Source: Bryoerythrophyllum caledonicum
Lineage: Eukaryota > Streptophyta > Bryopsida > Pottiales > Pottiaceae
DNA length: 64,000 nucleotides
Assembly (NCBI GenBank): GCA_963971425.1
Contig: OZ020525.1
Span: 1,178,001 to 1,242,000, forward strand
Reading direction: 5' to 3'
Part shown: positions 21,882 to 61,552 of the stretch, piece after piece
How the letters are laid out: every line of letters begins with the position of its first letter
Position numbering within the stretch: the first letter of the stretch is position 1
The notes under the pieces: generated by a model
What the model was told of the DNA's origin: nothing
The model's database searches: none
What the model saw: the letters and a program-made list of their open reading frames with translations, nothing else
Program-made: the position numbers and the translations under genes

Positions 21882-21904
21882 CTTCTTGAACCCGCCGCCG
21901 TTCG

Positions 21905-25949: not shown

Positions 25950-26906
25950 CTACCTGTTCATATAGCGAAATTCATCTTCGAGCCTGCGGATGTACTCGTT
26001 TTGGCTTTGTATTGTGGCTTCATGCATTTGTCTCTCAAACTCGGCATCTTTGGTCTGACGAGGTGGAAACATTGATGGAGGCGTGTTGTCTCTCCCATCT
26101 AAGCTCCGGCCATATCCATCGTAAGCATGGTCATATCCGTCGTAATAGATGTGTGTAGAGCTTGGGGTGTCGTGTTCTTCCTCTTTCCCGGGGAAATTAC
26201 GGCCAGACTCGTACGTATCCCTTGAATGCGTTGGCGTATAGCTCTGAGGGGTGTTGGCCCTTGTGCCACATTGGCCGCCTTCGTAGTAATGGCTGCCACT
26301 CTCCCCACCAAATGATACAGGCACGGAACCCATATCGTTGCCACGGTTGTAGTCGTTGTAGTTATGGCCCCTATACTCTTCTGGAGGTGTCCGCCGTTGT
26401 TGGTGGGCATCAGAATCGTCCCCGGATCTTCGGTTTGACCAACGTGGCCAACAATCACTCGGTTGATTCCAGGTGGTTGGTATAAAATGGGCAGTTCGAT
26501 CCATCCAGCTGACATTGCGGTTTGCCACGGTGCGCCAGTCCACATCCTTTTCTAGGACAATTTCCGCCCAAACCATCGCCATGTTCGAGTACAACATGAT
26601 CTCCGGCCTTGAGTTGCGCACACCCACCGCAGTAGTGACCTTATCATATCGATGGCGGAAATGGTCGCTCTGACAACTGCTCGCTAGACCTTTGTGCCGC
26701 GGCCCTGATATCCTCGCTTGTGCCTTGGGCCACAACTTCATGAGATGCTCCATCTTCACGTACCTCTTGCACATGGTGCAAGTCCACAACCTCTCTTCCT
26801 CGTCCTGCCATCCATACTCCGCAACAACATCTGGATCGTCCGTTGCGTCCCAATCCATCTCGGGGGCTTTCCCCTTTGGAGCAACGGGCCGGTTGGACCT
26901 TGGCAT
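25950..26906 (-). CDS. GW-C-H domain protein, 318 residues, intact frame
   Basis: ATG at 26906, TAG at 25950-25952, no interruption. Residues 18-45 are acidic with DDPD and a GW pair (32-33). The shared domain follows: W41, C46, K47, Y49, H54, L58-W59-P60, then C78, D81, F83, R84, and WAEIVLEKDVDW (113-124). The same spacing recurs at 31654, 58500 and 60733, so I treat it as a real domain of unknown function. Residues about 150-280 are low-complexity, rich in G, Y, S, H and D. The last 35 (TKDAEFERQMHEATIQSQ...) look helical, a probable short coiled coil. A CpG-rich GGACGGCC array starts about 155 bp upstream. It is the only intact member here. Function is unknown; a DNA- or protein-binding role is speculation. 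Confidence 0.75.
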   Translation of the reverse strand: MPRSNRPVAPKGKAPEMDWDATDDPDVVAEYGWQDEEERLWTCTMCKRYVKMEHLMKLWPKAQARISGPRHKGLASSCQSDHFRHRYDKVTTAVGVRNSRPEIMLYSNMAMVWAEIVLEKDVDWRTVANRNVSWMDRTAHFIPTTWNQPSDCWPRWSNRRSGDDSDAHQQRRTPPEEYRGHNYNDYNRGNDMGSVPVSFGGESGSHYYEGGQCGTRANTPQSYTPTHSRDTYESGRNFPGKEEEHDTPSSTHIYYDGYDHAYDGYGRSLDGRDNTPPSMFPPRQTKDAEFERQMHEATIQSQNEYIRRLEDEFRYMNR

Positions 26907-27054
26907 CTTCCCTAACTAGAACAAACAATGAAATGAATGAATGAAAATTAAATGAATTAAAAAAAATAATGAGCCACTCAAGGGGGCGCGAGTGATTTGG
27001 CAGAAGATGCCAAAGCGACCAGCTTGCCCACTAAAGTGTGGGAGAATGGTTAGC

Positions 27055-27290
27055 CGTTTGCCTTTTATGCCGACCGCGGGTGGCGGACGGCCTCGGCGGA
27101 CGGTTGGCGAATCGTCCGAGCCGTCCAATGGCGGACGGCCTCGGGCGTATCGCCCGATCGGACGGCCACGATGCCGCCACGGACGGTCGCGGCGGTCCGA
27201 TCGGATCCGTCCGTAGAGTCCGACCGTGGTTGTCGGATCGGACGGCCGAGGCCGTCCGCGGCTGACCCTGATCGGTTGGCCTCCCCTCTT
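27055..27290. promoter_or_regulatory. CpG-rich GGACGGCC repeat array upstream of the 318-residue gene
   Basis: About ten direct and inverted copies of GGACGGCC/GGCCGTCC, several extended to GATCGGACGGCC, within 235 bp. It shares its core with the arrays at 22370 and 31385. It lies 150-385 bp 5' of the ATG at 26906. A regulatory role is inferred from position only. Confidence 0.5.
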
Positions 27291-28099
27291 TGCTCGTCCA
27301 CTTCCTTATGCTCCCTCCCCTCCCAACTCTCTCCCTTCTCAACTTCCCTCCCTTTTCCTCCACTTCCTTTTCAAGGACGGTTGACTTTGCACGTGCAATC
27401 CAAATCTGGAGATCCAGTCATGTGCATTAATGGTCGGAAGAATGTCGAGAAGATTTTATGCGCATTCACGAGGATATTCTATTGTGCGCGTGGAAGCACA
27501 TATTTATATAGTTTCTTAATATTGGTTCCACTTAAAATATCTTCAATAACATGTAAGAGATGCTCGTTTCCTTTTTTATGTTTGACTCACCAGGAGGAAA
27601 TTGGAATGGCCCACGGGCACAATGTTCCAAGGGCCAATGGTACATTGCCCACGGCATAGGCATAACTTTGTATGGGAGGATTTTTGGCCTCTACATGACT
27701 ATATCTCCTTCGCGGCAAGTTTTTAATTTTGGGCAGGTTTCTAGATTGCGAATATGAAGAAACAACTTTCCAAAATTTTATGTTACTTTGTCCCTGGAAA
27801 GAGCTATTTGAATGTATTAATTTGTTTATTTTTTGGATTTGTGGTTTCAAATTTAGTACCACCCATAGTCAAAAAAGGAAAGCACTGGCATCTAAAATCC
27901 TTTTATAGAATTGTCTATTGACATTCACTCATTGAGGTTTTTCATACTCATCTCAAATATTTTTTTATTTAAAGATTTCCCAAAAAAATGATGGTCTTCA
28001 TTGTAAATTTGCATTTTATTCGAAGTAAAATCATTTCACCATTTTTTGTGCAATGTGCAACAAAACTTCTTCTTTTCAAGTTTTCCTCGATAAAACTTA
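27291..28099. other. Spacer without recognised genes
   Basis: A pyrimidine-rich start (27290-27370) followed by AT-rich sequence. Short open frames lack any recognisable motif. Confidence 0.45.
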
Positions 28100-29170
28100 C
28101 TAATTTTTATGTTTTTTTCACTTCTTTTTTTGTTCTCCTAAAAGATGTGATGTACACCCTTTTATCAACCAATTGAAATATGGAAAACTGTTCTAAAAGA
28201 TATTTAGTTCACAAGTGATTGTAACGTGAATTGGCCATTCTTGAACCTCCACTTGTTGTTGAATTTTTTTGAAGATGCTACACCCCTCTTTTATCTCTAG
28301 AAATTGGTGTATGGGATATCAACATGATGCCTAACTTTTAAGACAATGGTAAAAGATTTGGAACTTTTGTACTTCAAACATTACATAGACACTATAATCT
28401 ATCGATTTGAGCGATAATTTGCAACTAATACAATATGGCGTGTTCATATATTTGGTTCCTATCGACCGCACAAATAGATAAATGATGGGGTTTACAACCC
28501 AAACAACAACTCATTCTCTTCCTTGCGTTGATCTATATTCATGAGACACTAAGACTTTGACAACACTTCGTATCATATTTATGTAATATGCAAGGTCTAA
28601 ATATTTTACCCTTGTTTGAATCTCTAAAGGAACATGGCCAATTTAGCTTAAAAATTAGTCCATAACCGTCACATTGAAAAAGAGGCATAGCAATCACATT
28701 TTTCAAGTGATCTTTAGAATTTAAACTGTAAGATCCTAAAGTAGACTTCTATATGAACACACCATGCTCTTATGGTTGCAATCCAACGCATGGATTGATA
28801 GATTATAGTGTATAAAGTAAAAAAATGTTCATTTTCTTCCATCGTTGATTGGTATTCTAGACTTTAACTTTTCTTTTTATAAACCCTGATCCAATCAAAA
28901 AGTTCGTAATTTTATATTGTTCTGTGAAGCTTGATGACAAAACTTAATTCCATCTACACCAATTTATAGAGGTAAGAAATGGGAGTAGCATATTCAAACA
29001 AATTTGTGCAAGGAGTGGAGGTTCAAACATGGCCAATTTACATTTCACTTTTTTGTGCACCCGGCATCTTTTAGAATGTTTATCCAATCAATCAATGAGA
29101 ATGTTTATAACACATCTTGTACAAGAGAAAACAAGATGTTTCAAATTTAATAAGGTGTACATTTATAATT
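28100..29170. repeat. Diverged long inverted repeat, about 1.07 kb
   Basis: Left arm (about 28130-28480) and right arm (about 28740-29170) match in reverse complement in several blocks. Examples are ACACTATAATCTATC (left) against its complement near 28800, GTGAATTGGCCA...TTGAACCTCCAC near 28228 against its complement near 29020, and TTCTAAAAGAT near 28190 against ATCTTTTAGAA near 29070. About 260 bp separate the arms. A third, direct copy of part of the arm lies at about 30860-30970. No coding was found. It is probably a non-autonomous foldback transposon relic. Confidence 0.6.
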
Positions 29171-29760
29171 GTCCCTCTCTCTCTCTGGTTCTCTTCTCCT
29201 TCTAGTTTACCTGGCAGTTTCATTTTTATTTGGTTGTCCGTCTCTTCCTTTTGTCTTTTAAAAATAAAATAGGGATGTTCCTTCCCAGACTCATGCCTTC
29301 TAAATTACTTAATATCTAAATCAATAATTGTCCCTAAAGCCTAAACCCTCTTCTTTCTCTTCTAATTTACTGAAGTCTTCATTTACTATTGTCCATCTCT
29401 CGTTCTTGCCTCCTGTTTTTTTGTTTTTTGAAGAACCTTCTTTATTTCTATTTATATTTTTTTTGCATTCTTCTCCGCTCCTTCCAATAATAAGAAGGTG
29501 GAATTATTTTGCCTTGGATCCTCTTCTTCTAATTTAACTAGGATCTTCTTGAACGATTGTCCATCTCTCCCGTCTCCACTCACTCCATCTAAATTAAATG
29601 AGACCTACATTTATAAATGTCCCTCCCTCTCTCCCTCCCTTCTCTTTCCGTTTAAGTTCAGATCTAGAATTTTGTAGATTGTCACTCTCTTCCTTTTGTC
29701 CACTTCATTTATTTATTAGTTTTCTATTTCTTTGGTTTTTTAAACTCCTCATGACTCCTT
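29170..29760 (+). repeat. Diverged pyrimidine-rich repeats
   Basis: About four copies of a loose unit around ATTGTCC(C/A)TCTCTC and CTTCTAATTTACT occur at about 29170, 29325, 29500 and 29610. No protein was recognised. Confidence 0.45.
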
Positions 29761-31320
29761 TAACCCGTAATGGTCTAATCAATTTTAGATTAATCTCTAC
29801 TTTGTTGATTAATAACTACGAAGAAGAACTTATTGAAATTGTAACTATAGGATTTCCTTCTAAACTGATATGAGATAATATGGTCAAAATTTTGTGAATT
29901 CTGATTGTACAGATTGAAAGCTAATTGCTTGTTAAAGTATGCATTTCTGTACCATGGAGACACTTGGGCTTACACAGGTTGAGTTGACAAAAAGAAATGA
30001 AAGCCTTTGTGCCTATTGTTAAAGTGAAAGTCAACTTAGAAACGATGAGTAGATTCTATATCCGCATAAGGTAAAATGAACTTATGTTTCTGTATTTGCT
30101 CAAAGTAAAGTGAGCTTGTAGTTTACTTTACCTTCTACGGTGGGAGGAAAGTATAATGTATATGAGACAACTCTCCCACAAAGTTGAAAAAGCTTCTCCC
30201 TAGCTAATATATTTAAAATATATTTGTGTTATTTGTTGTCTCTCCCTTATATTTGCTCTCTCTCCTTCTTATATTCAGGTTTCCTTAGAGTATGTAGCTC
30301 TACTATCTTACGGTATATAGGTCCATCTTAACACCTAAAGGATCAAGTGTCAAAAGTGGGCTTTTTGAATGTTTGGTGAGGTTTCTATGGTGTGAATTTC
30401 CAACATTCTTCTTTGAAATTTTTACTATAGAAAGGCATTACCGATACCTTAGTGGGAAAACAACTTTTGCTTAAATTGGACATTTGACGAAAAAATTATA
30501 GGGTTTTGAATTTCCAATGGGGAGAGCGGGCACCTCGGAAACATGGAAACACTTTTGCTATGACACTCCATTGAAAGTGAGATTTTCAATACTCGCAAGT
30601 AATATTGCTTCCCTTGATATTGTGAAAAGACAAGTCTTGTCTTTACTGAAAAATAGCATATCAACCCAAGTCAAACATTTTCACACATTGTCACTCATTG
30701 TTGGGCAAGGTACGAAATAGAAATTCTTCTTTTCGAGATAAAATGTAGAGATCTTCATAATTTTCACGTATTATTTTTTTCACAACAACATCTGTTGTAA
30801 GCCTTCCTATTGACCATTGAGATTATCAATCAAAAACATATTTATCTCACAAAAAATTAAAGTGTGAATTGGCAAATTTTGAACCTCCAGTACTTGCACA
30901 TTTGTTTTGAATATGCTACACTTGTCCTTTACCTTTAAAAATTGGCGTATCAGGAACTATCATCATGTTTAACAAGATGGTAATGGATTTAGACCTTGTG
31001 TAGTGCAAAAATTTGACAGCAACTGGGTCAAAGATTGGTGATCTATTGAGTGGAGGTAAGAAAATGAACCATTTGCTTGACTTCAAACATTATAAACTTT
31101 CAAACCGTGTGATCAAAGTTTATGAAATTTTGTGAGTACATTACTTACTAAGTCTTAATTGAAATCCTATGGTCAAAACTAAAAGTTGAAGTTCTTGTTT
31201 CCATCTTTGTTCATTTCAATATAATCCAATACTTTTGAAGTGTTTTTGGTGGAAAACTATCACGGTAGTTCGAGATTAAATCCTTCCACTCTTTTAACGA
31301 AGGAAAAAATAAAGGAGAAA
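29761..31320. other. AT-rich spacer with one repeat copy
   Basis: The only recognised item is the direct copy of the 28130-28480 arm at about 30860-30970. Short open frames show no motif. Confidence 0.45.
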
Positions 31321-31653
31321 AAATGGTAAAAAGAGGGAAAAAAAAGAAAAAAAAGAAAAAAAAAGAAAAAAAAAAGTTTGAGAAGGGCGGCGGGCGGACG
31401 GCCGCCCGATTAGGTATGACGGCCGTCCACATATATATGCGGACGGCCACTTTTTTTTTCCTCACATCCTCTCCTCTCATGCCGAGTCGGATGTGCTGCA
31501 GTTACAGTTTTCGGTACTTGTTGCTCTTACTAGGTGAGGAGATGGGGGTCCTTTTATTGTGACCGGATAAACCGTTTCTTAATTTCCCGAACCGTTCACT
31601 TACGAATTAATACCGGAGTGTCCGCGCTTGTTTTTTTAAAAACAAGCATTATC
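31321..31653 (+). promoter_or_regulatory. Upstream region of the GW-C-H/RING gene with GGACGGCC array
   Basis: An A-rich run (31313-31380) is followed by 31385-31450 with GGGCGGACGGCCGCCC, GACGGCCGTCC and GCGGACGGCC, enclosing a TATATATA stretch near 31432. The core motif is shared with arrays upstream of the two preceding loci. The ATG is at 31654. A promoter role is inference. Confidence 0.45.
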
Positions 31654-34600
31654 ATGGCGACGGAGAAGCAAATCGTGGTGGAAGATGTGAGTGAAATTCG
31701 AACGGGAGAGTCGAAGAAACGGTTCAAACAAAAAGGTGCTACTCATGATCTACGGTGGGAGATTTTGGACGATGAAGACATTCTAGTGGAGGACGGTTGG
31801 GAGGCTGAAATGGAGGATTATTGGGTATCCAAGACATGCAAGAAATACGTGAAGATGTACCACATCGATAATCTTTGGCCAAGAGATTGCCACATAAGTC
31901 ATACGACTTACTTTGCTTGCAAGCCGTGGATGTGCAAAGATGACCACTTCATTTATCGTGTGGAGGAGGTTTGGCGGGCTTTGTTTGGGGATCGTCCAAG
32001 AAGCAAAGGATTTTTCAATAGCAGCCTACTATCAATGGTATACACCGAGGTCGTGTTGAAACGAAAGGTGGATTGGAGCACGTTTCCGACTTCTACACAA
32101 TATCCGCTTAGGATTGGGCAAAATCAGAGCATATTCCTGATTTATTCAATCTTGAATCGACCTTGACCAAGGCTATTTTGGAGGAGTTGAAGAAAAAGCC
32201 TCGTCAGATGACCGCGGTGGATACCATGCCGAAAATACAACCATCGGTGGAGGAGGTTGCCGTTGTGATGGAGTCTGACAAACATTTGGACATTGTGGTC
32301 AACAATATATTGTCAACCACAATCCCCAAAGAGACTTTGGAGCTAATGATGGTAGAAGACTCCGTATAATCAGATATTTTGAATATTGTGATTGTAGGAG
32401 GTAAAGACGACGGTAACGCCGAACGAGGGGGAGAGAATACAGATGGAGAAGAAACCGCTGTTCCAATCGTTCAAACTTTGGGAGGCATGGCATCAGAGAC
32501 AATGGATGCCAGACCAAACACTTCAACGCGGGGAATATTGGAACCAATTTCCAATGATCCAATGATTGACAAGAGTACTTTGATTTCCGATATTGAAGAA
32601 ATGCTTCGAACCATGCCAAACAAGGAAAATTCAAAGACTTGCTCGACTTCAGTGTTAAGTGGACTGAAGCGTACGTTGAAGCAAAGGAATTTTGTCATCT
32701 ACTCGATCTGCAAAGTGATTTGAGGGAATGGGCCAAAATACATGAAGTATTGGGAGTGGCTTATGATTTGAAGAACGGGGCCGAAACTCTTATAGCAATG
32801 GCTCCTTCTCTTTTAAAAATGGCTCATGCGTTTTCAAGTATCACTCCGTATGTGCTATAAGGCGTTAATGGCTTCGACAAATTGGCTTCATGTATACTGC
32901 CAATGTTACGAAAAAGGGTCGCGATAACTCAGAAAGTAATGGATATGGAGAAGGAGGCCTATAAAAGTGAAATCCTTACTAGAGACGTTAAATGGGAATT
33001 GGAAAAGAACAAGCGACAGTTGGAGGCCAGTAGGAGACTCCTTAACAAGATGTCGGAGAAGATGAATGCGCAGGTGCCTGAGGTGGATGTGGTGGTCATT
33101 GAAGATAGTGACGGAACTTCGAACGACCTCGCTCTTTCCAAGTTTGTAGAGAATGATGCAGAAGATGCCACACCGGTCAAATCTAGCAACACCGCCGGGC
33201 CTTGTTCTGTTCAATTGACAGTACCAGCTGGGAGTAGCCAAGTACGGCGAGAAGCGCCTGAAAAAAGGAAGGCAATAATGGAATGTGAGGGAGAGATGGA
33301 ATTGATGTCACAGAAGTTGGAGGTGGCAAATAAGGAGAGGGACGAGGCACGAGCGGAACTAGAGACACTGCGGATGACATTGAGATTGGTGGACGATACA
33401 CCATGAAACAAGAACACAATGCCTTGGTTGAGTTGGGTTCATCGCCTTGAGGACAGGGAGACCATGATCTCGAAAGCACAACACGATCTCAAGAAATTTG
33501 CCGCCGAATCACAAAAATCATGTGAACTTGTGGATACCTCATTAGAGCGATTCAAGAAATTCGTTGGACAACATAGACATGAGTCCACAAAGGTTACTAT
33601 TTGAGGTGATGTCCCGGAGATGATGGATCGTACAAATTATCATCGGAAAGGAAAGAGCTATGGTATTGACTGGGCTTTAGAAGTGGAGGAAGGATGGGTG
33701 CCCTACAATACCTTCTCATCACATTTTGTAAAATCGCAACGAAGAGTAATCCATACTTGCAACTCTGTCCCGGCATTCCTCAATGACAAATGCAGCTTGT
33801 GTCAAGATCATTTCGGTTTGGACGGAGCGTATACATTGGGCCAATGTGGCCATAACTTTCATATTACTTGCATTTCCGCATGTTCTATGATACAATCGGC
33901 GTGTCCTATGTGTCGCTCTCCAACTAGCACAAGATTTTAGGAGGTGATGGAGATAAGAGATGTTATGCCACCGGGGCACGAGTTCAACCGATGGAATCTC
34001 CCCTTGGATCAACTTCCGAAGAAATCCTTGAACTATCGTGAGTGGGGAAAACCACGTATGTGGAATAGTGAGTTTTCTTGTCACCAACTATACGAGGTGT
34101 ATGAGATGGAAATTGATCTATTTTTAGAATGACACAAGACTATGAGGTGGAGATATGGGCGTGAGAGATTGAGGATGGCAAACAACAAGAGTTGTTTTGC
34201 CAAAACTTTGGGGGGCATAGGAACACTGAGCACAAACGTTTCTTCCGATTTCCTCCCAGGAGAGCTGAGAAGGGAGAAGATGGTGTATGGCATGAGGTAA
34301 GCGATGGCATTGAGCTGAGAGATGAATACAAGAAATACAATCGTACATTGTGGGAAGAGCCCTGGTCGTTGCAAAGTTGGAAGAGGCCACAAAGCTACGG
34401 AGTTCAATGGAAGAGGATTCTTTTAAAGACGTAGACTGTTCTTATTGGGATGCGGTACAAGCATTTGATCGGAGGATTGAGGACATCATAGGATATTGGC
34501 GGAACGTGCTACAGAAACCGGAAGGAAAATTATTGGTGTCATTTCCAGAGAATGATGCTTTTGTGAGCAATGTGGTGGAACGAATAAAGAAGACCATCGA

Positions 34601-34818
34601 AATCTTTGCGGCAAAGAAGGTGGATCCAGACGGGAAGGAAGGGGGATGATGGCAATGACAGCGACATTAGTTGGTGGTCGGAGATGCATAGGGAAATTGC
34701 AGCCGTGGATCGAGAGTACGAAGAGGGGGAAATGATTGCTAGGCCAAGCCAGAGACCGTGGACTCGTAGTAGCACTCGAACGGATCATACCGATGAACCT
34801 TCTTCTTCAAGGCAATAG
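31654..34818 (+). pseudogene. Decayed GW-C-H / coiled-coil / RING-H2 gene
   Basis: ATG at 31654. The first 500 bases encode the GW-C-H domain (DDEDILVEDGW, W56-C61-KKYVKMYH, NLWP, VYTEVVLKRKVDW). About 32163-32640 encode an acidic linker in another frame. About 32640-33600 encode a long helical, coiled-coil-rich part (KWELEKNKRQLEASRRLL; EVANKERDEARAELETLR). Bases 33791-33913 encode a C3H2C3 RING-H2 finger: CSLC, then CGHNFHITC, then CPMC. A conserved-looking tail follows, with WNLPLDQLPKK, NFGG, FRFPP and SYWDAVQAFDRRI, to a TAG at 34816-34818. In-frame stops (near 32164, 32367, 32858, 33404, 33602, 33938 and 34130) and at least four frame changes break it. RING-H2 fingers usually mark E3 ubiquitin ligases, so the ancestor may have been one. 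An unusual intron pattern is an unlikely alternative, because frame changes occur without room for introns. Confidence 0.75.
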
Positions 34819-35684
34819 AATGTGGTAGATGAATGTAAAGCTTAGCGTAGTTGTTGGTTAAGGAATGGTGTAGCAAGAAGTCGGAAGCATGCCGTGGTGG
34901 GGCATACTTTTTGAAATAAAGGTTTACAATTTATAAGATATTTTGTCAACTTCTCAATTCTTTAATTGTATGTGGGTGTTAGAAATATTGTGGTGCATCA
35001 GGTGGATGCAAAGCAGTGAAATGAATAGAAGTTTGCAAACTCGAAGTACATTGTGCATACAACAAGAATGTCATGTTTAAGTGATTTTGTATAGGATGAC
35101 TAAATCCATACACGAAATACAAGACGATAGAATAGCAAAAGAGATGGATGTAAAACTTGTGCATATATGAAAAAACTTTATTGATATTCGGAATAAATCC
35201 AAGAATCAATTGAGGCAATAGAAGCTTTCAATGCATACGCGGAACGGCTATAAAGTATAGTAAACTCAAACTACACTATTTACAAACAAAATAAGTGCGG
35301 TGAACGCATACTTCGTAAATGGGCCACATTTTCCTACTCATTCACATTGGTAGGAAGTTCGTAATCGATGTCTCCTTTGATTTCAACTCCACTAGATCCC
35401 AAACGATCGTCATTATTATTTGTGGCGGCTTCTTCTTTGATTCTCCGTTTCATCAACAATGTTTTAATGGTTTTGAATCAGTTGCAAATTTCAATGACAT
35501 CAAAGGGATTACTAGGTCGCGTGCAAAAAAATGGATGCATGGGAGCTTTACATTTCTTCGTGTCGTTTGTAGGCCGCCTAAGTTGTAACCCTAAACCTCC
35601 CTGAACCTCGGGGTGATGTATGAAGAGCTTAGACAGAGGTACATCGCCATCACTAGGTAGGCCATCGGATTGGTGTTGCGGCGT
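34819..35684. other. Spacer between two pseudogenes
   Basis: AT-rich, no recognised gene or repeat. Confidence 0.45.
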
Positions 35685-37970
35685 TCAGGGTCGCACATGT
35701 TTTGAAAGGGACACCAAACCGTGGGAGGATTTCAAATTGGTTGTAGTGACCGTTGCAAGAGGGGTTGCAAATAGAGACCGCGACGCGCGACCTTGCAAGG
35801 ACGGTTGATCCTTAGAGGAGGATGCCTTTTTCTCCGTAACGTGAATGGGACTCCGTGTACCGCCGTAAGTACCGCCCTCCATAGTTTTCTCCCCGAGAAC
35901 AACGGTGTCGTTAAGGAATGGCTCTTTCGTTATTTGCTCGGGGTTCTCCGCAAGTGCGAGACCGTGGTGCTTGCCATCCTCAACACTCATCACTGAGGGC
36001 CCTTGCGTTTTTTGTCCGTGTAGTGCCATTGCACGTGAGGATGATAAATCTTCTCCTCCCTTGTCTTTCGTATCTTCCAGAAGCGGAGTCGATCCACGAC
36101 GAAGGATATTATTGCTATTGACCATGCCGTCTCCATTCAAGTACCGCGCTACGGGCAACAAGTCATCTTCTTTATCTGCATCAACGTTGTCATCGAAAAA
36201 ATCATTCTCAGTGATTGGGGTGTCGTGAGTATGATCCATACGTTGAGAAGGGCTGCTGACGATGTCATCGTCTAGATGCTCTGCATCGTAATTGGCAACG
36301 GCACCGTTGCTTGAATCGTCAGAATAGTCCGGGTCATCCGACTCACGTGGTTGTGGATCCTCTAAATCCAAGTTCTCTGCGTACCACCTCTTCTCATCCG
36401 TCAACTTTGCATTTGCAAGCAATTTCGAGTTCGTATACACAAAGACCAAGTCATCAGCTCTTCCGATAATAACCAATTCTGTTTCTTGTCATGGACAAAA
36501 GAGTAGCTACTCCAATTGCGTTCGCAATAAGAAGTTGACACTGTCTACGCTAGTATTCTCTTTGCAATTGGTGCAAGGAGCTTTCCACAAGCACCTTCAA
36601 AATCCCACCAAACATACGGAGAACATTTTTGGTCCTTAGGATCCAACATGTCATGGAATGGTACATCCTTGTTTCAAAATGCGAGGAATTCGTTCACCAC
36701 CTCCGGGTAAGTCTCAGGATCACATAACTTTTGTAGTACTCGTTTGCATGCCGTGATGACATCCGGATCATCGGCCAACTCTTCGTCATGGAGTAAATAA
36801 GGATTGAGAAGTGCACCGGCGGAATGTAAATCCATGGTCATCATCCGTTTCCGTGCGTAGAACTCGTTCTTAGCAATGAACGCTAAATCACTATCGAGAC
36901 TGAATGGTTCATCAAGCAACGCTAGGACATGCTTCTCGAGGTCGCGAAGGATGTGGAAAACCTTGGACATGCAAGGTTCCTTGGCATCGAATTCCCGAAG
37001 CACATACACTACAGGGGCTACCATCTCGTGGAAGTTCGTGCACCGCTCCCAGAAATGCTCATCTAGAACCACTCTTTTAATGGCTTGAGAACTGACTACT
37101 TTATCTCTAGCCGAGAGTGACTTCTTGGAGGCATATGCCCGCCATTCAGGATCAACAACGGTTTGCTCCAATGATTCCTTGACCTTCAGCAGGCGATCTA
37201 TCATTATGAAATTACATGCAAATCTTGTTTGCCCGGGGAGCAATAAGCTGAACTTCGCCTCGTGTTTACGAAACAGGGCGAGGGGCATTTGCCGATTCTT
37301 GACAAACTTAACCAAGAACTTGGCCTTCTCGAGAGTTTCTTTTACCCATGTAGCCTTCCCCTAGTCCTCCAACAATAAGTCCATGGCATGCGCGGCACAT
37401 CCTTGAATGTGTATGTGTGGATATTTCTTGACGACCAATGTTGAGGCATTGAGCATGACTGGAGCATTGTCAGTACACACTTGAACAATGTTGTGGGCGC
37501 CAACTTGTTCAATGAACTTGACATGATGGATGCCAGGTACGCAGCGTTCTTTTCTTTGCGTGTAGTATCTACAGCTCCCAAGAAGAGCTCTCTAGCGGGA
37601 GACACAAGCATTACATTGCACAAAGGTCGACTAGTCACAAATGTCCACCAATCTATGGCTAGAGTTCCTCCAAATTTCCGAACACTCTCGAACGGTATTT
37701 TATTGAGTTGTGCTTCTGAATCAGCCTTCGCTTGTCCCAACAACCTTGTTCGAATGTCATGGTAAGAGGGTGGGACATATGGTTTTTTGAAAGAGACAGT
37801 CTTCATCACGGCTTCCTTGAATGAAACATTCCATGCTATAGCAAACATCACGTTTGCTTCGTGGAAAAACTTCGCCCACACTTTGTCTAGCTCCCGCCGC
37901 TCCACTTCTTGAAAGCCCTCTTCGAGCACGGATTGCCTCACCAATCAAGGGAAGGTGGCACCTATTCTTC
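35685..37970 (-). pseudogene. hAT-superfamily transposase relic
   Basis: Read from high to low coordinates. 37944-37342 encodes the DUF659-type segment (FKKPYVPPSYHDIRTRLL; GGTLAIDWWTFVTSRPLCN; LVSPARELFL). 37315-36674 encodes the middle part (LLLPGQTRFACNFIMIDRLL; VVYVLREFDAKEPCMSKV). 36640-36480 encodes the hATC dimerisation core with WWDFEG, LAPIAKRIL and ERNWSSYSFVH, with a TAG after RILA. 36476-35685 encodes an acidic tail after LVFVYTNSKLL. Frame changes occur at about 37330 and 36478. It would have cut and pasted a DNA transposon. The N-terminal BED finger is missing: at 37971 a GC-rich inverted-repeat element interrupts the gene. Confidence 0.88.
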
Positions 37971-38370
37971 CTCAGGGTTGTCAGGACGCTCGACGTCCGG
38001 ACGTCAGGACGGAAGACGTCCTCCCGGCCTATCAGGACGTCCGGTGACATAACCTGTTTTGTCANNNNNNNNNNNNNNNNNNNNNNNNNNNNNNNNNNNN
38101 NNNNNNNNNNNNNNNNNNNNNNNNNNNNNNNNNNNNNNNNNNNNNNNNNNNNNNNNNNNNNNNNNNNNNNNNNNNNNNNNNNNNNNNNNNNNNNNNNNNN
38201 NNNNNNNNNNNNNNNNNNNNNNNNNNNNNNNNNNNNNNNNNNNNNNNNNNNNNNNNNNNNNNNNCCCGGGTAAACTGACAAAACTCGTTATGTCTCCGGA
38301 CGTCTTGATAGGCCGGAGGACGTCCTCTGTCTTGACGTCAGGGACGTCGAGCGTCCTGACAACCCTGCTT
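37971..38370. mobile_element. Foldback/MITE with CAGGGTTGTC termini, containing an assembly gap
   Basis: CAGGGTTGTCAGGACGCTCG (37974 onward) is mirrored by CGAGCGTCCTGACAACCCTG ending at about 38367. Both arms continue with GACGTCC- and AGGACGTC-rich sequence for about 90 bp. CAGGG termini suit the hAT superfamily. No clear 8-bp target duplication was seen (left TTCTTCCT, right CTTGTAAG). 38065-38264 is 200 N. The true size is unknown because of the gap. Confidence 0.72.
38065..38264. other. Assembly gap (200 N)
   Basis: Exactly 200 N, probably a fixed-size scaffold gap, located between the arms of the inverted repeat. Confidence 0.99.
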
Positions 38371-47378: not shown

Positions 47379-47392
47379 GGTTATGGGCCCAC
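47379..47392 (+). other. Primer-binding site of A2
   Basis: GGTTATGGGCCCAC directly after the LTR, identical to A1 and B10. It matches the initiator tRNA-Met anticodon stem-loop. Confidence 0.8.
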
Positions 47393-51100: not shown

Positions 51101-52117
51101 AGCCAAGCGGATCACTCGTTGTATATCAAGCAAACAAGTGAGTATTTGTTGATAGTACTCATCTATGTGGATGATTTGATCATCTTGGCTAGCCTTATGG
51201 CAATGTTGGCGTGGCTCAAGGCCAAACTCAAGAAGGAGTTTGAGATGAGCGACCTTGGAGAGTCGAGGTACTGTATTGGAGTGGAATTCGAGAGGGATCG
51301 CAAGGCACGCACCATCACTATGAGCCAACGGAAGTACATTGAAGAGGTACTCAAGCGATTCAACATGGAAGAATGCAAGCCCATTGGTACCCCACTTGAC
51401 GTAAATGTCAAGTTGTTAAAGCTCTCGGAAGAAGAGTTTGAGGCCATTCAAGGTGAGATGGAAGGCGTACCATATAAGGGCGGAGTTGGGTCTTTGATGT
51501 ATGCGATGGTAGGCACAAGGGCGGACCTTGCATTTGCGGTGAGTTTGGTGAGCCAATTCATGTCAAGGGCCGGTCCGGCACACTGGAGTGCGGTGAAGCA
51601 CATCATGCGGTACTTGCAAGGTACCTTGGACTTCAAGTTGTGCCTTGGCGGTGACAACATCACCTTGAGTGGGTATTGCGATGCGGATTGGGCGGGAGAT
51701 CTAAATGAACGGCGATCGTCAACAGGGTATGTGTTCTTTGTTGGAGTTGGTGCAATCTCATGAAATTGCAAGAGGCAACCCACCATTGCCTTGTCCACAA
51801 CGGAGGCGGAGTACATGGCCACTAGCCAAAGCACGAAGGAGGCCATTTGGCTTCGCAAGCTATTGGGTGATGTAGGGTTTGTTCAAGAAGGAGCAACGAC
51901 GATCATGTGCAACAATCAAGGGTGCATTGCTCTTGCAAAGAATCCCACACACCACTCACGAGAGAGTGGTGAGATTTGTTTGAAGTATTGTCCAACGGAA
52001 GACATGGTGGCGGATGTGTTGACAAAGGCACTTGCGAAGGAGCGCCATCAACAATTGGTGAAGGCGATGGGATTGCGAGAAGGTAACGACTCGCAAAGTG
52101 GGAGTGTTGGAGTATAG
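48125..52117 (+). pseudogene. Family A gag-pol polyprotein of A2, one nonsense codon
   Basis: Begins MATFENESTKV. The first frame is open for 1212 residues: UBN2-type Gag, knuckle CYNCGKPGHIARNC, protease DSGAT, integrase (LWHRRLGHLN, SDNGGEF, TPEQNGVAERANR), linker of about 60 residues rich in E, S and P, RT with YVDD, and RNase H to GYVFFVGVGAIS. A TGA at 51761-51763 stands where A1 has TGG. Downstream, a 45-bp in-frame deletion after base 51960 removes the TKHIDVQHH segment near the RNase H end. The stop at 52115-52117 is in the 3' LTR. Compared with A1 it keeps the 53-codon linker and has no RT frameshift. It is the better of the two A copies but still disabled in RNase H. Confidence 0.95.
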
Positions 52118-52236
52118 TGTTGCTCGTAGTTATTACGGCATTGTAAATAGTTGTATTGAGGTAGAATGAAAGGGCGGGAGTAAAATGGGAGAAAATGGAG
52201 AGAGGTGTATTGGCACATGTTGCACATGGGCAAGGC
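52105..52236 (+). repeat. 3' LTR of A2, first part
   Basis: The first 132 bp of the LTR. Its last five bases AAGGC (52232-52236) are the target site of B10. Confidence 0.93.
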
Positions 52237-52471
52237 TGTTGAGTATAGAGTGCTAAACTAGTATAGAAAGGTAGGACCAGCCCTACCTTAGAAGATAAGA
52301 AGTAGAAAAGGGTAGCTTGGTGTCATTGTCTCATAAGGATTACAATCAAGAGCTGATGTATTCCATTGATAAGAAGAGCATGGGAAGTGGGAGTATTCAC
52401 CTCCCTCATTGCAAGCTTTACCACCAACTTGTTCATTCTTCATTGTCTTCCTTTCATTTCATTCTTCAATA
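52237..52471 (+). repeat. 5' LTR of B10
   Basis: 235 bp, TGTTGAGTATAG to TTCTTCAATA. Confidence 0.95.
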
Positions 52472-52485
52472 GGTTATGGGCCCAC
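52472..52485 (+). other. Primer-binding site of B10
   Basis: GGTTATGGGCCCAC with no gap after the LTR, the reverse complement of the initiator tRNA-Met anticodon stem-loop. Confidence 0.8.
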
Positions 52486-53056
52486 GAACGTGAGTTGCGA
52501 AGGAGGGGAGGGCTGATCTACTTGGAGCAAGCTTGGAGCACCTTGGGAGAGCCGGATTGCTCAACATTGTGCCTTGGTGAGTGTTTGCTTGTTGTTGTGT
52601 TGTTGAGAGGTCGTTTGGGTGGATTTGAGGCTCATTGGAGCAACTAGGGTTTCATGTGTCTTGATTTAGGGTTAGGTCAGCACATTTGACCTTGGGATTG
52701 TGCTCTTGATGTTTGGAGTGCCCATTTGAGTGCATTAGAGTGCATGGTGTTGCACTAGTGTCTAAACTAGTGAGTTTAGTGGATGTGCACTTTAAGAGGG
52801 GCTGATGTGGACTAGAGGTGCCAAGGTGAGTGCCTAGGAACGTGTGAAGCACTAGAGGTGCTGACTTGAGTGTTTAGAGTGGTCATCTACCCTAGAGGTG
52901 CTAAAGGGAGAGCTTAGGGTTGCAAGTGACACTAATAGGGCTGATTTGCACTTGCATGTGCACTTGGTATAGTGTTTTGAGTGCATAGGAGTTGCGAGGG
53001 TCTTGTGAAGAGGGCTGAAGTGCTTGGAGTGAGTGGGAGCTACTCCACACCAAGCT
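52486..53056 (+). other. B10 leader
   Basis: 571 bp with several GGGCTGAT and TAGAGGTGC motifs spaced 40-60 bp apart. No coding was seen. Confidence 0.7.
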
Positions 53057-56000
53057 ATGGCTTCAAGTGAAGGAGAGGGGCTACGGCTCGTGGACAAGTT
53101 CAATGGAGACAACTTCAGCCTATGGAAGTTTAAGATGGAGATGATCCTCTCCGCCAAGGACCTATGGGACATCGTGGATCAAACGGAGCTGCCCCCACCA
53201 CCCACGGCCGATGAGAAGGACAAGAAAGACTATGAGCGGCGTTGCAAGCGTGCCTTTGCGGTGATTGCCACCAACTTGGTGGACAAGGAGATGGCGCACA
53301 TCAAGGCTTGCAAAGGACCAGCGGAAGCGTGGACCACGTTGTGCAACATACACGAGACCAAGAGCCTCTCCAACATCTTGTTTTTGAGAAGGAAGTTCTT
53401 CACGGTGAAGATGGAGGAAGGCGGCGACATGTTGGATCACATCAACAAGGTAAAGTCCCTTGCGGACCAGCTCACTTGTTTAGATGTGCCCGTGAAAGAC
53501 GAAGATGTTGTTATGACCTTGCTTGAAAGCCTTCCACCATCGTACGAGCACTTGATCACGGCCTTGGAGACGCGGCCCGTGAAGGAGCTCACCGTGGAGT
53601 TCATTACCGCACGACTTATGCATGAAGTGTCCAAGAGGAAGGAGAGGGAACCTCAAGGTGAAGATGCGGCAATGATCTCACGTCAAGACAAGAAGGGCAG
53701 CTCTAGCACAAGGCAAGAGGCGCGTACGTGCTACAAGTGTGGCAAACCGGGCCACATTGCTCGCAATTGTTGGAGCAACAAGGAAGTGGCCAACAATGCA
53801 AGAGATGAGGTAAGCCACAATGACTTTGTGTTTGTGGCCAATGGCGGGGCAGCCAACACCTCCATGAACAATTGGATTGTTGATTCGGGGGCCACACAAC
53901 ACATGACACCCCACAAGCATGCCTTTGACACGTATGAGTCCATTTCGGGGCGCAACGTGTTTATGGGAGACAACGGCGTGGTGGAGGTGGTGGGCAAGGG
54001 TTCCATCGTGGTGGAGAGCAACGTGGAGGGCCAGCGGAGGCGCATCGTGGTGCACGACGTGCTCCATGTGCCCAAGTTGCATGCCAACTTGCTATCGGTG
54101 AGCAAGCTCGTATCAAGAGGGTTGGTGGTGCAATTCAACACCAAAGGATGTGCGGTGCGCTCTTGTGAAGGTAATTTGATTGCCACATCTTCAATGGAGG
54201 CCAACTTGTATCGATTGGAGCTCAAGGTGGTGAGTGGGGCTGATGTGGGTTGCCTAGCACACACATCGACCAACGGGCCACTCATGGAGCTTTGGCATAG
54301 AAGGATGGGCCATCTCAATGCGAAGGGAGTCAAGGCGTTGCAAGGCATGGCAAACGGCATGGACCTAGGCAAGGCTCCATCCAATGTGGTGCCATTTGCT
54401 TGTGAAGGGTGCATTGAAGGCAAGCTTGCAAGGCAGCCCTTCCCTACCGATGGTGCGGAGCGTGCCACGAAGGTGTTAGAGTTGGTCCATTCGGATGTGT
54501 GCGGGCCAATGAAGACGACATCTTTTGGAGGAGCAAGGTACTTCCTCACCTTCATTGATGACTTTTCAAGGAAGGTGTGGGTGTATGTGCTCAAGTGCAA
54601 GAGTGAGGTGCTACCACGCTTCAAGGAGTGGAAGAGCTTGGTTGAGAAGCAATCGGAGCACAAGGTGAAGGTATTGCGCTCCGACAATGGCGGCGAGTAC
54701 ACGGGCAAGGCATTCGATGAGTTCTTGCGCAAGCATGGCATTGCGAGGAACACATCAGCCCCCTACACTCCACAACAAAATGGTGTTGCGGAGGTGCAAA
54801 CCGCACCATTGTGGAGATGGCGCGGTCCATGTTGTATGCCCAAGAGCTTGGGCGTGAGTTTTGGGCTGAGGCGGTGTGTACCGCGGTGTACACACGCAAC
54901 CGGTGCCCTAGTAGGGCTCTCCAAGGTGTGACGCCCGAAGAAGCATGGAGCGGTAAGCGTCCCACCATCTCCCACATGCGTGTCTTTGGTTGTGTAGCTT
55001 ATGCAAAAGTGCCCGATGAGAGGAGGACCAAGCTTGATGCAAAGGCCATCAAGTGCTTGTTCCTTGGATATTGTGAGGGCACGAAGGCGTATAGGCTGAT
55101 TTGCATCGCAACGAAGAAGATAATCAAGAGCCCGGACGTGGAGTTCTTCGAAGACAAGGAGTCTTTGAAGGAGCATCCAAGTGGGAGTGTTGATGAAGGA
55201 CCAGCCCTTGAGGTGGACGGCTCCTTCAAATCCGATGATGATGAAGAGTTTGAAGAAGAGCCAAAGCCTTTGGTGGTGCAACCAGCCCTTTGTGGCCCTT
55301 CGGAGAGCTTTGTGGACGGAGGGGAAGGCACCATTGATGAAGAGGTGGAGGGCCAGCCCAAGCATAGAGGGCAATCGGCTCCTATTCTTCGTGCGAGGAC
55401 AAGGAGGATTGCAAGGGAGGCTCCACCGCAGCCACCACCAAGGAAAGATGACAACGACACCACGGAGGCGTCTCGGTACTCGAGGAGGGTGCGCAAGCCA
55501 CTTGGAGAGTGGTGGAAGAACCACATCTTGCCCCCACGTGATGTGGAGCGTGCAAACGTGGCTGCCATTGCGGAGCCTCACACCATGAGTGAGGCCATAC
55601 ACTCGCAAGATGCGAGCAAGTGGGAGCTAGCCATGCAAGAAGAGTATGACTCCTTGATGGCCAATGGAACGTGGGAGTTGGCACCATTGCCTTCAAACCG
55701 CAAGCGTGTAGGGTGCAAGTGGGTCTTTCGAACGAAGAGGGATGCCAATGGTGACATCGTGAGGTACAAGGCAAGGCTCGTCGCAAAGGGCTTCTCACAA
55801 GTTGAAGGTGTGGACTTCAATGAGACCTTTGCTCCCGTTGCGAAGTTTAGCACCATTCGGTGCATGTTAGCGCTCGGGGCAGCCATGGACTTGGAGATCC
55901 ATCAAATGGATGTGAAGACGGCCTTCTTGAATGGAGAGTTGGAGGAGGATGTGTACATGGACCAGCCACCGGGGTTTGTGCAAGAAGGCCAAGCCCACCT

Positions 56001-57174
56001 TGTGTGCAAGTTGAAGAAGAGCCTTTATGGGCTCAAGCAATCTCCACGTGCTTGGTATGAGAGCTTCCATGCATTCTTCACAAGGGAGGGCTTCACAAGG
56101 AGCATGGCGGACCATTCATTGTACATCAAGCAAACAACGGACTACTTCATGGCGGTGGTCATCTACGTGGACGACGTGATCTTGTTGGTAAGTGGCATGT
56201 TGATGATGAGGAAGTTGAAGGGCAGCCTTGAAGAGGAGTATGACATGAGTGATCTAGGTGAGTTGCATTTCTTCTTGGGAGTTCACATTGAGAGGGATAG
56301 GGCAGCCCTCACCATCACCATGCACCAACGGAGCTACATCGAGGGTGTGCTCCAACGGTTTGGCATGGAGGATTGCAAGCCCATTGGCACACCTTTGGAT
56401 GCAAAGGCGCCATTGGTGAAGCTTGGCGATGAAGAGTTTCAACACCATGAGGAAGGTATGTTGGATATCCCCTACAAGGAGAGTGTGGGTTGTCTAATGT
56501 ATGCAATGGTAGCCACAAGGGCTGACCTTGCATTTGCGGTAAGCGTGGTGTCTCAATTCATGTCCAAGCCCGGTCCTATGCATTGGGCAGCGATGAAGAG
56601 GATCATGAGGTACTTGAAGGGCACCATGGAGATGAAGTTGACTCTTGGAGGCAAAGACATCAGCCTTCATGGATATTGCGATGCGGATTGGGGAGGCGAT
56701 GCAAGCACAAGGAAGTCCACGACGGGCTATGTCTTCTTCCTTGGAGTGGGCGCCATATCGTGGAATAGCAAGCGTCAACCAACGGTGGCTCTATCAACCA
56801 CGGAAGCGGAGTACATGGCGGCGAGCCAATCCGCCAAGGAGGCCATTTGGCTAAGGCAATTGATGGCTGATGTAGGGTATGTGCAATGGGAGGCAACCAC
56901 CATCATGTGCGACAACCAAGGTTGCATTGCACTCGCGAAGAACCCCAAGCACCACTCACGAACGAAGCACATAGATGTGCAACACCATTTCATTCGAGAG
57001 AAGATTGAAGATGAGGTAATTGAGTTGCGGTATTGCCCCACGGAGCACATGGTGGCTGATGTGCTCACAAAGGCACTTGGAAGTGAGCGACATGTGATGT
57101 TGAGCAAGGCAATGCGCTTAGAGTCCAAGGACTCCTCGCTAAGTGGGAGTGTTGAGTATAGAGTGCTAAACTAG
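53057..57174 (+). pseudogene. Family B gag-pol polyprotein of B10, single frameshift
   Basis: ATG at 53057 (MASSEGEGLRLVDKFNGDN), chosen because B2 and B6 share it. Gag with UBN2-type region (LWKFKMEMILSAKDLWDIVD), knuckle CYKCGKPGHIARNC, protease DSGAT, LWHRRMGHLN, integrase DNGGEY and YTPQQNGVAE, then a one-base deletion at about 54793 relative to B1 and B2. The other frame continues from about 54795 with EMARSMLYAQ, an acidic linker (KSDDDEEFEEEPK), RT with YVDDVILL, RNase H with [10 protein letters not shown] and STTEAEYMA, and stops at 57172-57174 inside the 3' LTR. All catalytic motifs are visible. A programmed frameshift is unlikely, since other B copies are in frame here. Confidence 0.95.
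57141..57149 (+). other. Polypurine tract of B10
   Basis: AAGTGGGAG adjoining the 3' LTR and overlapping the pol frame. Confidence 0.8.
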
Positions 57175-57674: not shown

Positions 57675-57716
57675 CTATGGGACATCGCGGATCAATCAGA
57701 GCTGCCCACACCATCT

Positions 57717-59321
57717 ATGGCCGATGAGAACGAGAAGGACTATGAGTGGCCTTCCAAACGCACCTTTGCGGTTATTGCCACCAACTTGGTGGACAAGGAG
57801 ATGGCGCTCATCAAGGCTTGCAAGGGACCAGCGGAAGCGTGGACCACGTTGTGCAACATACACGAGATCAAGAGCCTCTCCAACATCTTGTTTTTGAGGA
57901 GGAAGTTCTTCACGGTGAAGATGGAGGAGGGCGGCGACATGTTGGATCACATCAACAAGGTAAAGTCCCTTGCGGACCAGCTCACTTATTTAGATGTGCC
58001 CGTGAAAGATGAAGATGTTGTCATGACCTTGCTTGAGAGCCTTCCACCATCGTACGAGCACTTGATTACGGCCTTGGAGACGCGGCCTGTGAAGGAGTTG
58101 ACCGTGGAGTTCATTACCGCACGGCTTATGCATGAGGTGTCAAAGAGGAAGGAGAGAGAGCCTCAAAGTGAAGATGCGGCCATGATCTCACGCAAAGACA
58201 ATAAGGGCAGCTCTAGCACAAGGCAAGAGGCGCGTACGTGCTACAAGTGTGGCAAACCGAGCCACATTACTCGCAATTGTTGGAGCAATAAAGAAGTGGC
58301 CAACAATGCAAGAGATGAGGTAAACCATAATGACTTTGTGTTTGTGGCCAATGGCGGGGCAGCCAACACCTCCATGAACAATTGGATTGTTGTTTCGGGG
58401 GCCACACAACACATGACACCCCACAAGCGTACCTTTGAGACTTATGAGCCCATTTCGGGGCGCAACGTGTTTATGGGTTCGGGGCGCAACGTGTTTAAGG
58501 CATTTCGAGGCTGGAGAGATGTACCATGTCTGTGGACATTTACACAGTGTGCAAAGTACATTGCCTGGTGTCATTTCGGACAAATGTGGCGGCAATCGCG
58601 GTATTTGCAATTTCTGAAATACGACAAGGGTAATTTAAATTATTGTACCAATGAAGTGTTCAAAGAACGGTGCATCCAAATGTACCAGCACATCTATAAC
58701 ACGGCAAAGGTTCACCGGAACGAGGTGAATCTATCCATTTTACGTACGGTGTATTCTGAAATTATACTCGGAGTAGTAGTCGATTGGAGGACGATGGAAA
58801 TACAACCAAACTCCAAGATGACTCCAATATCCACGTCGTCACTACCAATAGAGCGCAAGATTCTGGGCGAAGCTCTAGGAAAAAAGGCCAAGGAGGTTGA
58901 AGTTCCAAACGAGGAAGTCGTGTAGTCTGACACTTCCAGTGACGACTCGGATACTAGGTGTGACTCAACTATTCGCAAATAGATTGAAGGCTTTATTAAA
59001 TGCCATTGGCTAGATTCTGCCCTCCAAGAAACACCGACAATTGGAGAAGATTCCGGCAAGGAAGAAGATCAAACTGAGATGGACGCGTTTGCATATGAGA
59101 ACATCAATGAAAACCTAGAGTCTTTTGATGATGTTCCAATTGGACGAGAGGCTCATCTTCAACTTCTTGCTAAATATCAGCAAAGTTTACAGGAAAACAA
59201 GAATCTACTAGAAGAAGCCAACTGCAACAAAGAAGAACTTCAAAAATTACGCGCTGTACACCAAGATAAGGACAATCAAATCCAGGAATACGTGAAGTTG
59301 GTGTTTACTTCAAAGTCGTAG
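57717..59321 (+). pseudogene. Fusion of family B gag with a GW-C-H domain gene
   Basis: ATG at 57717 opens 402 codons to a TAG at 58923. Codons up to about 58455 are family B Gag: [14 protein letters not shown], knuckle CYKCGKPSHITRNC, and the protease site changed from DSGAT to VSGAT, so the catalytic Asp is lost. A 23-bp duplicated stretch (TCGGGGCGCAACGTGTTTA) marks the joint at about 58455-58498. The frame then continues unbroken into the GW-C-H domain: RGWRDVPCLWTFTQCAKY, CHFGQMW, YCTNEVFKERC, VYSEIILGVVVDW. Past the TAG and another at 58979, the same frame holds an acidic part and a coiled-coil-like tail (LLAKYQQSLQENKNLLEEAN) to 59321. The A2 LTR just upstream could drive it. Whether it is expressed is unknown. 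Confidence 0.8.
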
Positions 59322-60040: not shown

Positions 60041-60147
60041 TTCAAGGCACTAGGTTATAAGTAAGTAGAAGTATTGTATGTCAAGTTCAAGGCACAAGGT
60101 TATAAGTAAGTATGAGTATTGCATGTCAAGTTCAAGGCAGAAGTTCA
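60041..60147 (+). repeat. 45-bp tandem repeat
   Basis: Two full copies and a partial third, starting at 60041, 60086 and 60131. The unit begins TTCAAGGCACAAGGTTATAA. Confidence 0.85.
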
Positions 60148-60159
60148 AGGGACACCCCT

Positions 60160-60324
60160 CTCGCTTACGCGCTCAGCCCTTCAGCGTACGCACGCAGCCC
60201 TCCAGGGTACGAGCGCAGCCCTCCAGGGCACGCCCGCAGCCCAATTGCGCACGTGCCGAGCCCTCTCGCGCACGCACTCCGCCCTCTCGCGTACGCGCGC
60301 AACCCCCTCGCATACGCGCAACTC
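60160..60324. repeat. GC-rich 21-bp tandem array running into an assembly gap
   Basis: About eight units of 21 bp around CAGCCCTCCAGGGTACGCGCG and CCCTCTCGCGCACGC. The unit length is a multiple of three, so all three plus-strand frames stay open and give 7-residue repeats (such as SPLAYAR); I do not call this coding. It lies upstream of the GW-C-H pseudogene at 60733. Confidence 0.8.
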
Positions 60325-60524
60325 NNNNNNNNNNNNNNNNNNNNNNNNNNNNNNNNNNNNNNNNNNNNNNNNNNNNNNNNNNNNNNNNNNNNNNNNNNNN
60401 NNNNNNNNNNNNNNNNNNNNNNNNNNNNNNNNNNNNNNNNNNNNNNNNNNNNNNNNNNNNNNNNNNNNNNNNNNNNNNNNNNNNNNNNNNNNNNNNNNNN
60501 NNNNNNNNNNNNNNNNNNNNNNNN
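60325..60524. other. Assembly gap (200 N)
   Basis: Exactly 200 N, inside or at the edge of the 21-bp array. The array is the likely cause of the break. Confidence 0.99.
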
Positions 60525-60732
60525 GCAACTGTCAGGTGGCGACTGCTTGCTTGGCACTTTTGGGAAGTTTTTTACGGTGTCTATTGACACCTTTGTATTT
60601 CGCCAGCTTCGTATTCCTCCACCTCGTCACCATGGATTATGGACAACCATCTACCACTAGCAGTCCCCACGGAAAATGACAACGTGATTTTCGTCACGCA
60701 CGCTCATAGCAGAAGAAGGCCTTCACGTGTTG

Positions 60733-61552
60733 ATGGATGAGAAGATGAAGGCATTATCAGGTTGGGAGGCAGTTCCAACTCCATGGACACTTGCACAATG
60801 TGCAAAATACATTGGATGGTGTCATTTGGGGCACCTCTGGCCATACTCGCGGTATTCTCTAATGCGACGTACTAATAGGGCCAACTTGGGGTACTGCACC
60901 AATGAGTTCTTCAAAGAGCGTTGCATCCAAGCGTACCAGCTTATTTATGACGAGGCGAAAGTGTGCCGCAACTCGGTAAATATTTCAATTTTACAGATGG
61001 TTTACGCGGAGGTGGTACTTGGCGTACCGGCTGATTGAAGGACAATGGAAATCCAAACAAACTCCAAGACTCGAGATGGCTCGAGTCATTGGATTAACAA
61101 TTCTGTTTGTGCGGAAGATTCCAGGAGAAGGTCTCGGGAGAACCATGGAAGTTGAACCTTCGGATCAAAAAATCGAGTGGTCCGCGTCTTCATTTGACGA
61201 CTCGGATATTAGATGTCATCCGTCTGTGCGTAGGCAACAAGAATTGTCCTTCAAATTAGGCTTGAACCCTAAACAGTCAGTTTGACAACAAGAAAGAGAT
61301 GCCACAAATACGGATGCGGTACCTGAGGAGGGCGTGGATAATACACAAAAGCCTACGCAGGGTGACTGGGTGAGTTGTGACGATTATCTTTGAGTTGTGA
61401 ATCAACTAAATGAAATCTTGAAGGTAATTGAGGATCTAGGAGAAGATCTCAATGAGAAGGAAAATGAAGTTGCGGAATGCCACGAAGAAATTTAAGACTT
61501 GAAGGAACAAGTTCGGGAGAAAGACCGTCTTCTTTCATTTTTGACTGGCTAA
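60733..61552 (+). pseudogene. GW-C-H domain gene, short decayed copy
   Basis: From ATG at 60733 (MDEKMKALSGWEAVPTPW) the domain is clear: WTLAQCAKY, CHLGHLWP, YCTNEFFKERC, VYAEVVLGVPAD. A TGA at 61036-61038 replaces the Trp of the VDW motif, and the frame then shifts near 61070. The second frame continues with ASSFDDSDIRCHPS, similar to SDDSDTRCDS after the fusion copy, and ends in a coiled-coil-like tail (LGEDLNEKENEVAECHEEI; QVREKDRLLSFLTG) at a TAA (61550-61552). Three more in-frame stops occur. It is closest to the GW-C-H half of the fusion at 58500 (FKERCIQ, TMEIQ). Confidence 0.75.

Follow-up and report, generated by a model that had tools for sequence, protein, structure and literature searches.

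Introduction

What kind of gene carries a protein domain that occurs four times within 64,000 nucleotides of moss DNA, and what might its product do? The stretch in question, hereafter the window, comes from Bryoerythrophyllum caledonicum (GenBank assembly GCA_963971425.1, contig OZ020525.1, positions 1,178,001 to 1,242,000), and the domain, about 100 residues long and here called GW-C-H, is found in four genes or gene remnants labelled C1 to C4 (C8, C9 and C12 denote other sequences of the genome on which copies lie). An earlier note had described four dispersed copies; they are in fact two pairs, each lying within one multicopy hAT-like transposon family. Family 1 contains a kinase-like open reading frame (ORF), C1, C2 (coiled coil plus RING) and a transposase, and family 2 contains C3, C4 and a transposase. 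Both belong to the hAT superfamily, as seen in their DUF659 and hATC transposases, the family-1 termini and the family-2 right terminus. On sequence grounds the GW-C-H genes are almost certainly transposon genes of hAT elements. The whole of our explanation, that they encode accessory proteins of large hAT elements in the moss genome and act as helpers, we consider evenly balanced between right and wrong.

Common descent of the four domains

The pattern claimed for four loci was located in all four segments, and comparison of their sequences shows common descent. When the 1297 six-frame pieces of at least 30 residues in the window were searched with one single-sequence hidden Markov model (HMM) per domain, 12 of 12 cross-matches among C1 to C4 were obtained, with expectation values (E) from 9.8e-5 (C4 to C1) to 5.7e-40 (C3 to C4). 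The shared residues stood well clear of chance, no non-member piece doing better than E = 0.43 and no shuffled piece, at one shuffle each, better than 0.15, and the same search found no fifth GW-C-H copy in the window. An hhalign comparison of C1 plus C2 with C3 plus C4 gave a probability of 97.9 and E = 3.5e-13 over 100 columns. Fifteen columns are invariant across the C1 to C4 alignment, in which C1 and C2 have a common upstream stretch that is absent from C3 and C4. The C-H-C pattern proposed for the domain, which in a zinc-binding domain would supply the metal ligands, holds in these four, where C, H and C are invariant, but not in a third-family member described below, in which neither Cys column holds a cysteine.

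The integrity of the copies varies. C1, on the minus strand (25950-26906), had been called intact, and its frame is indeed open, but the word suits the domain rather than the whole gene, which ends 31 residues early, at 321 residues against 352 in the C12 and C9 copies (stop to stop). C2 in the window represents the 5' portion of a gene; the gene is broken into pieces here and forms one long frame elsewhere, with open frames of 1080, 990 and 912 residues around three stop-free genome matches. The similarity of C3 to other copies begins at 58497, just past a Copia fragment ending at 58477, and the C4 frame ends at 61038, the position taken by the W of VDW in other copies. The tails after the domain differ, as the earlier note had said; specifically, the RING it reported in the C2 tail was recovered by Pfam (zf-RING_2, E = 2.6e-8) and is also present in the C9 copy of C2 (2.4e-6), and Pfam found no RING in C1, C3 or C4.

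A large family-1 element carries C1 and C2

The family-1 features in the window are as follows.

20487..22792, minus strand: family-1 left end, inverted in the window and collinear, inverted, with the C12 copy; holds the kinase-like ORF
22770..22792, minus strand: left terminus CAGGGTTACCAATCCGACGTCCT
25950..26906, minus strand: C1 gene; GW-C-H domain at 26517-26861, then a low-complexity middle and a C-terminal helix
31654..32163, plus strand: C2 gene, first piece; GW-C-H domain 31738-32085
32861..33403, plus strand: C2 gene, middle piece; coiled-coil-like by eye, weak Pfam coil matches; collinear in the C12 copy
33605..33937, plus strand: C2 gene, RING piece
35685..37944, minus strand: hAT transposase of family 1, fragmented; DUF659 part at 37345-37944 and C-terminal tail at 35685-36488
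38349..38367, plus strand: right terminus, ends GACAACCCTG

C1 and C2 sit in one large repeated element of about 18-20 kb. Window positions 22793-37972, which span C1, C2 and the ORFs at 35685-37944, are collinear with the C12 copy in three blocks at 91-94% identity. The transposase gives DUF659 at 2e-10 in the window and, over two adjacent ORFs of the C12 copy, DUF659 at 3.1e-33 and Dimer_Tnp_hAT at 3.4e-9; zf-BED reached 0.14, under the cut-off. C1, C2, the kinase-like ORF and the DUF659/hAT transposase all lie between CAGGGTT and CAACCCTG ends. These termini are CAGGG-type inverted repeats, CAGGGTTACCA on the left and ...TGACAACCCTG on the right, the right terminus ending ACAACCCTG or similar (window 38367, C12, C9). 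The left terminus starts CAGGGTTACCAATCCGACGTC; all 40 scored matches, the best 40 of 522 candidates, align from base 1 or 2, and the flanks directly outside it were unlike in all five copies fetched. Together the C8 left end and the C12 right end come to about 20 kb; the window copy spans about 18 kb including the inverted piece, and one C9 end pair lies 11.9 kb apart.

Copies were sought in the host assembly of 437 Mb. This also contains, on C894, an intact psaB whose top PDB matches are 7ksq, 6l35 and 8htu (1666 bits), structures of Physcomitrium patens photosystem I, followed by 9lut (1633 bits) and others at no more than 1599 bits, which makes a moss host probable. The DNA of the C1 ORF has at least 49 matches (88-100% identity) and C2 at least 151, listed down to 62% identity, all such counts being lower bounds that are biased to close copies. 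Scored places were drawn from first-look candidates as 40 of 343 for C1, 150 of 2509 for C2, 150 of 2647 for C4, 40 of 522 for the left end and 40 of 447 for the right end, the unscored candidates being unconfirmed.

Two further observations concern this element. The kinase-like ORF (20742-21947, minus strand) matches Pkinase at 2.1e-5, below the cut-off, in the window and at 0.013 in the C12 copy; transposons would not usually be expected to carry a kinase gene as cargo. Within 37973-38367 there is an inverted CAGGGTTGTC terminus, which is opposed to the right terminus on the other side of a gap and may be a short inserted derivative or an assembly artefact.

A second hAT family carries C3 and C4

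58497..59305, plus strand: remnant of the C3 gene, truncated on its 5' side at a Copia junction; GW-C-H domain at 58509-58796 followed by a coiled-coil-like tail
60736..61035, plus strand: C4 GW-C-H domain; frame stop at 61038
62151..62752, plus strand: first part of the family-2 hAT transposase, truncated by Copia; BED-like on inspection by eye; copies G and D are collinear with it

C3 and C4 are neighbours in a second, related hAT element in which the transposase follows C4. At locus L034, positions 240-1048 are 92% identical to C3 (58497-59305) and lie directly before C4, and L034 also matches the window from 60525, covering C4 and the start of the transposase ORF, at 88%. In copy G the order is C3, C4, transposase, the last with a broken frame, and copy D has an open C4 frame of 363 residues and, 470 bp later, an open frame of 762 residues (stop to stop), which matches DUF659 at 1.9e-34 and Dimer_Tnp_hAT at 2.5e-5, above the Pfam cut-offs. 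The right end GACAACCCTG occurs in copy G and in another partial copy in stretch D; no family-2 left end was found. The best 150 of the C4 candidates all have E of at most 2.4e-55, with 84-100% amino-acid identity. C2 and C4, for each of which 150 places or more were scored, ought to be left out when host gene families are counted. A 200-N stretch is present at several C4 loci too, and Copia sequence abuts both C3 and the family-2 transposase in the window.

Both families share with known hAT elements DUF659 and hATC matches above the Pfam cut-offs; the CAGGG...CCCTG ends are also typical of hAT. Classic hAT elements such as Ac encode the transposase alone. Unlike these, family 1 measures about 18-20 kb and has a kinase-like ORF, and there are two GW-C-H genes per element.

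Recurrence of the family-1 arrangement

If family 1 is a mobile unit, the order C1, C2, right end, with its strands, should recur across the host genome, and it does. Pairing used 40 of the 49 C1 matches (nine being second pieces of copies already used), 150 listed C2 places and 40 of 42 right-end matches (two being short). A C2 place lay on the expected side and strand at 16 of the 40 C1 places, at 4.8-6.1 kb in 13 of the 16, and there were 13 pairs of C2 and right end, 10 of them at 6.56-6.98 kb. Among the matches listed, no differently arranged pair was found within 15 kb for either C1 and C2 or C2 and the right end. Two results weigh against a mobile unit of this kind: 24 of the 40 C1 places had no C2 among the matches listed, and an 8-bp target-site duplication was not found, one end pair having unlike flanks and one junction search returning no match.

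A third lineage, age and selection

The partnership between hAT transposases and the GW-C-H domain looks old, because the transposases of families 1 and 2 are only 39-42% identical. One degenerate member of a third hAT lineage also carries the domain. A profile search of fetched stretches found degenerate GW-C-H pieces on C9 (17419455-17421035; E = 4.6e-7 and 1.3e-4) with a stop between them; after these come a coil and a RING-like stretch, and a hATC-like ORF lies ahead of them, both assignments being by eye. The RING-like gene of this locus (G000 C9:17416747-17421611, L021) also has a C-terminal part. Such a repeated and apparently old partnership with an unplaced domain suggests a class of plant transposons whose helper genes have been left as 'hypothetical'.

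The suggestion that the domain had been under past selection found support. Across 10 copies of C1, taken from distinct places and picked by DNA similarity, the ratio of nonsynonymous to synonymous substitution (dN/dS) was 0.34 for the domain against 0.57 for the remainder of the gene. For C4 it was 0.17 in 29 of 30 copies, one locus having failed the frame test and been dropped, a value biased low since the copies were picked by protein similarity. In several C1 copies (L003-L008) stops stand in place of conserved Trp codons, the change expected from deamination of methylated cytosines.

These values bear on the idea that the domain is a passenger, a host gene that hAT elements captured and that was amplified without having a function. 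Many copies are broken, and there is a precedent for capture in the histone H3 gene of a fungal hAT element, which in excerpts of PMC6710886 resembles the present case in having an extra gene in a hAT element and hundreds of copies. In those excerpts, however, the fungal cargo is a recognisable host gene inactivated by repeat-induced point mutation, whereas here the domain is unplaced, each element has two such genes and frames are open. With dN/dS below 1, long open frames persisting, and the domain shared by three hAT lineages whose transposases have diverged, two of which carry it twice, we consider a passenger very improbable.

Family-specific motifs in non-coding parts

22376..22553, no strand: CGGACGG cluster, 5 sites; left end, upstream of the kinase-like ORF
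27084..27258, no strand: CGGACGG cluster, 8 sites; upstream of C1
31395..31446, no strand: CGGACGG, 2 sites; upstream of C2, with 4 sites there in the C12 copy
60156..60319, plus strand: 21-bp tandem array, 7.8 copies; upstream of C4, beside the 200-N gap 60325-60524; like L034:1052-1194
61805..61879, plus strand: 20-bp array; in the interval from C4 to the transposase gene, ahead of the transposase TATA-like box

The window contains 17 occurrences of the word CGGACGG where 2.66 would be expected, the maximum in 100 shuffles being 7. Three clusters, which precede the kinase-like ORF, C1 and C2, account for 15 of the 17. The C12 copy has 15 such sites, of which 14 precede C1 or C2 or sit at the transposase end. 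Of the 24 in the C8 stretch, 12 are at the left end and upstream of C1, seven adjoin an N gap and five are elsewhere. Family 2 has different repeats, 21-bp arrays before C4 and before the transposase, with the same core near the right end. In copy G CGCGCCCGGC occurs 10 of 10 times in one direction, six of these 10 exact occurrences lying near the right terminus, and GTACGCG 10 of 12 times; L034 has nine near-matches of the family-2 motif against 0.14 expected. A TATA-like CTATATAAG follows the second family-2 array in 23 of 30 copies. The motif words were picked post hoc, after counting, and the figures describe rather than test, which also tells against our account. The 200-N gaps at 38065-38264 and 60325-60524 both lie within GC-rich element repeats.

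Sites near element ends are what a transposition cofactor would use, that is, a protein that binds subterminal repeats and is needed for cutting or joining, with no role in silencing. TnpA of Spm/En and MURB of MuDR are analogues, set beside the present genes by description only, in that a small helper is combined with repeats at the element ends. The family-2 motif near the right terminus of copy G and the extension of CGGACGG to the right end in the C12 copy fit a cofactor, and coiled coils would suit synapsis; the other motif clusters sit at promoters inside the element, and we regard a pure cofactor as somewhat unlikely.

Relation to known families

The view that the domain cannot be placed was upheld: in the libraries searched it matches no family by sequence, with no Pfam, NCBIfam or PDB match above cut-off. 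The NuBaID/zf-C3HC (BIR-like) zinc finger PF07967 was rejected, having been matched by C1 only, at E = 0.031 and 14.8 bits against a cut-off of 22.2. A structure model of the domain shows a weak likeness to helical EF-hand chains.

This likeness would suit an adaptor for protein interaction, in which the domain binds a host protein that the C2 RING ubiquitinates, the DNA motifs being unrelated promoter sequence. The domain is coupled to a RING in C2 and, by eye, in the third family, and C1 and C2 are not basic ahead of the domain. Since it leaves the family-specific arrays unexplained, and C1, C3 and C4 lack a Pfam RING, the adaptor seems to us unlikely.

A possible helper that counters silencing

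We instead propose a DNA- or chromatin-binding helper, because the GW-C-H genes share their setting with VANC: accessory genes by a transposase, family-specific arrays at promoters, and coiled coils. VANDAL elements, in which VANC is found, are Mutator-like and not hAT. In excerpts of PMC5735166 and PMC10398659, VANC of Arabidopsis VANDAL elements binds arrays of short motifs in the elements' own non-coding parts and induces loss of methylation, and according to the first of these the arrays differ by family and the gene is an accessory one beside the transposase. Unlike VANC, the GW-C-H proteins had no VANC/DUF1985 similarity reported in Pfam scans, no direct alignment with VANC having been made.

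By this analogy, a GW-C-H protein would multimerise through its coiled coil and bind the non-coding motif clusters of its own element at gene promoters and element ends. Binding would keep the element unsilenced and transcribed, as VANC does for VANDAL, and/or help the transposase to assemble on the ends, and the C2 RING would contribute ubiquitin-ligase activity, perhaps directed against a host silencing factor. That the protein binds its own element's motifs or has an anti-silencing role falls, in our judgement, a little short of an even chance. More tentatively still, this may be a moss lineage of very large multi-gene hAT elements with their own anti-silencing apparatus, consisting of a new DNA-binding domain in two genes per element, one of them RING-fused, that co-evolves with element-specific promoter arrays, and thus an independent, hAT-based counterpart of VANC. 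With its open frames and defined promoter arrays, the system lends itself to testing how transposons of an early land-plant lineage might counteract silencing.

Other features

Much of the window is occupied by long frames of Copia-type retroelements (2295-6193, 7132-11272 and 48104-57174). Upstream of copy G (L055:232-3964) there are ORFs with a SWIM-like Cys/His stretch, which resemble, by eye, a transposase of the Mutator-like element (MULE) type. Near the end of the window, at 63782-63942, lies a 27-bp tandem repeat of six copies with 94% matches.

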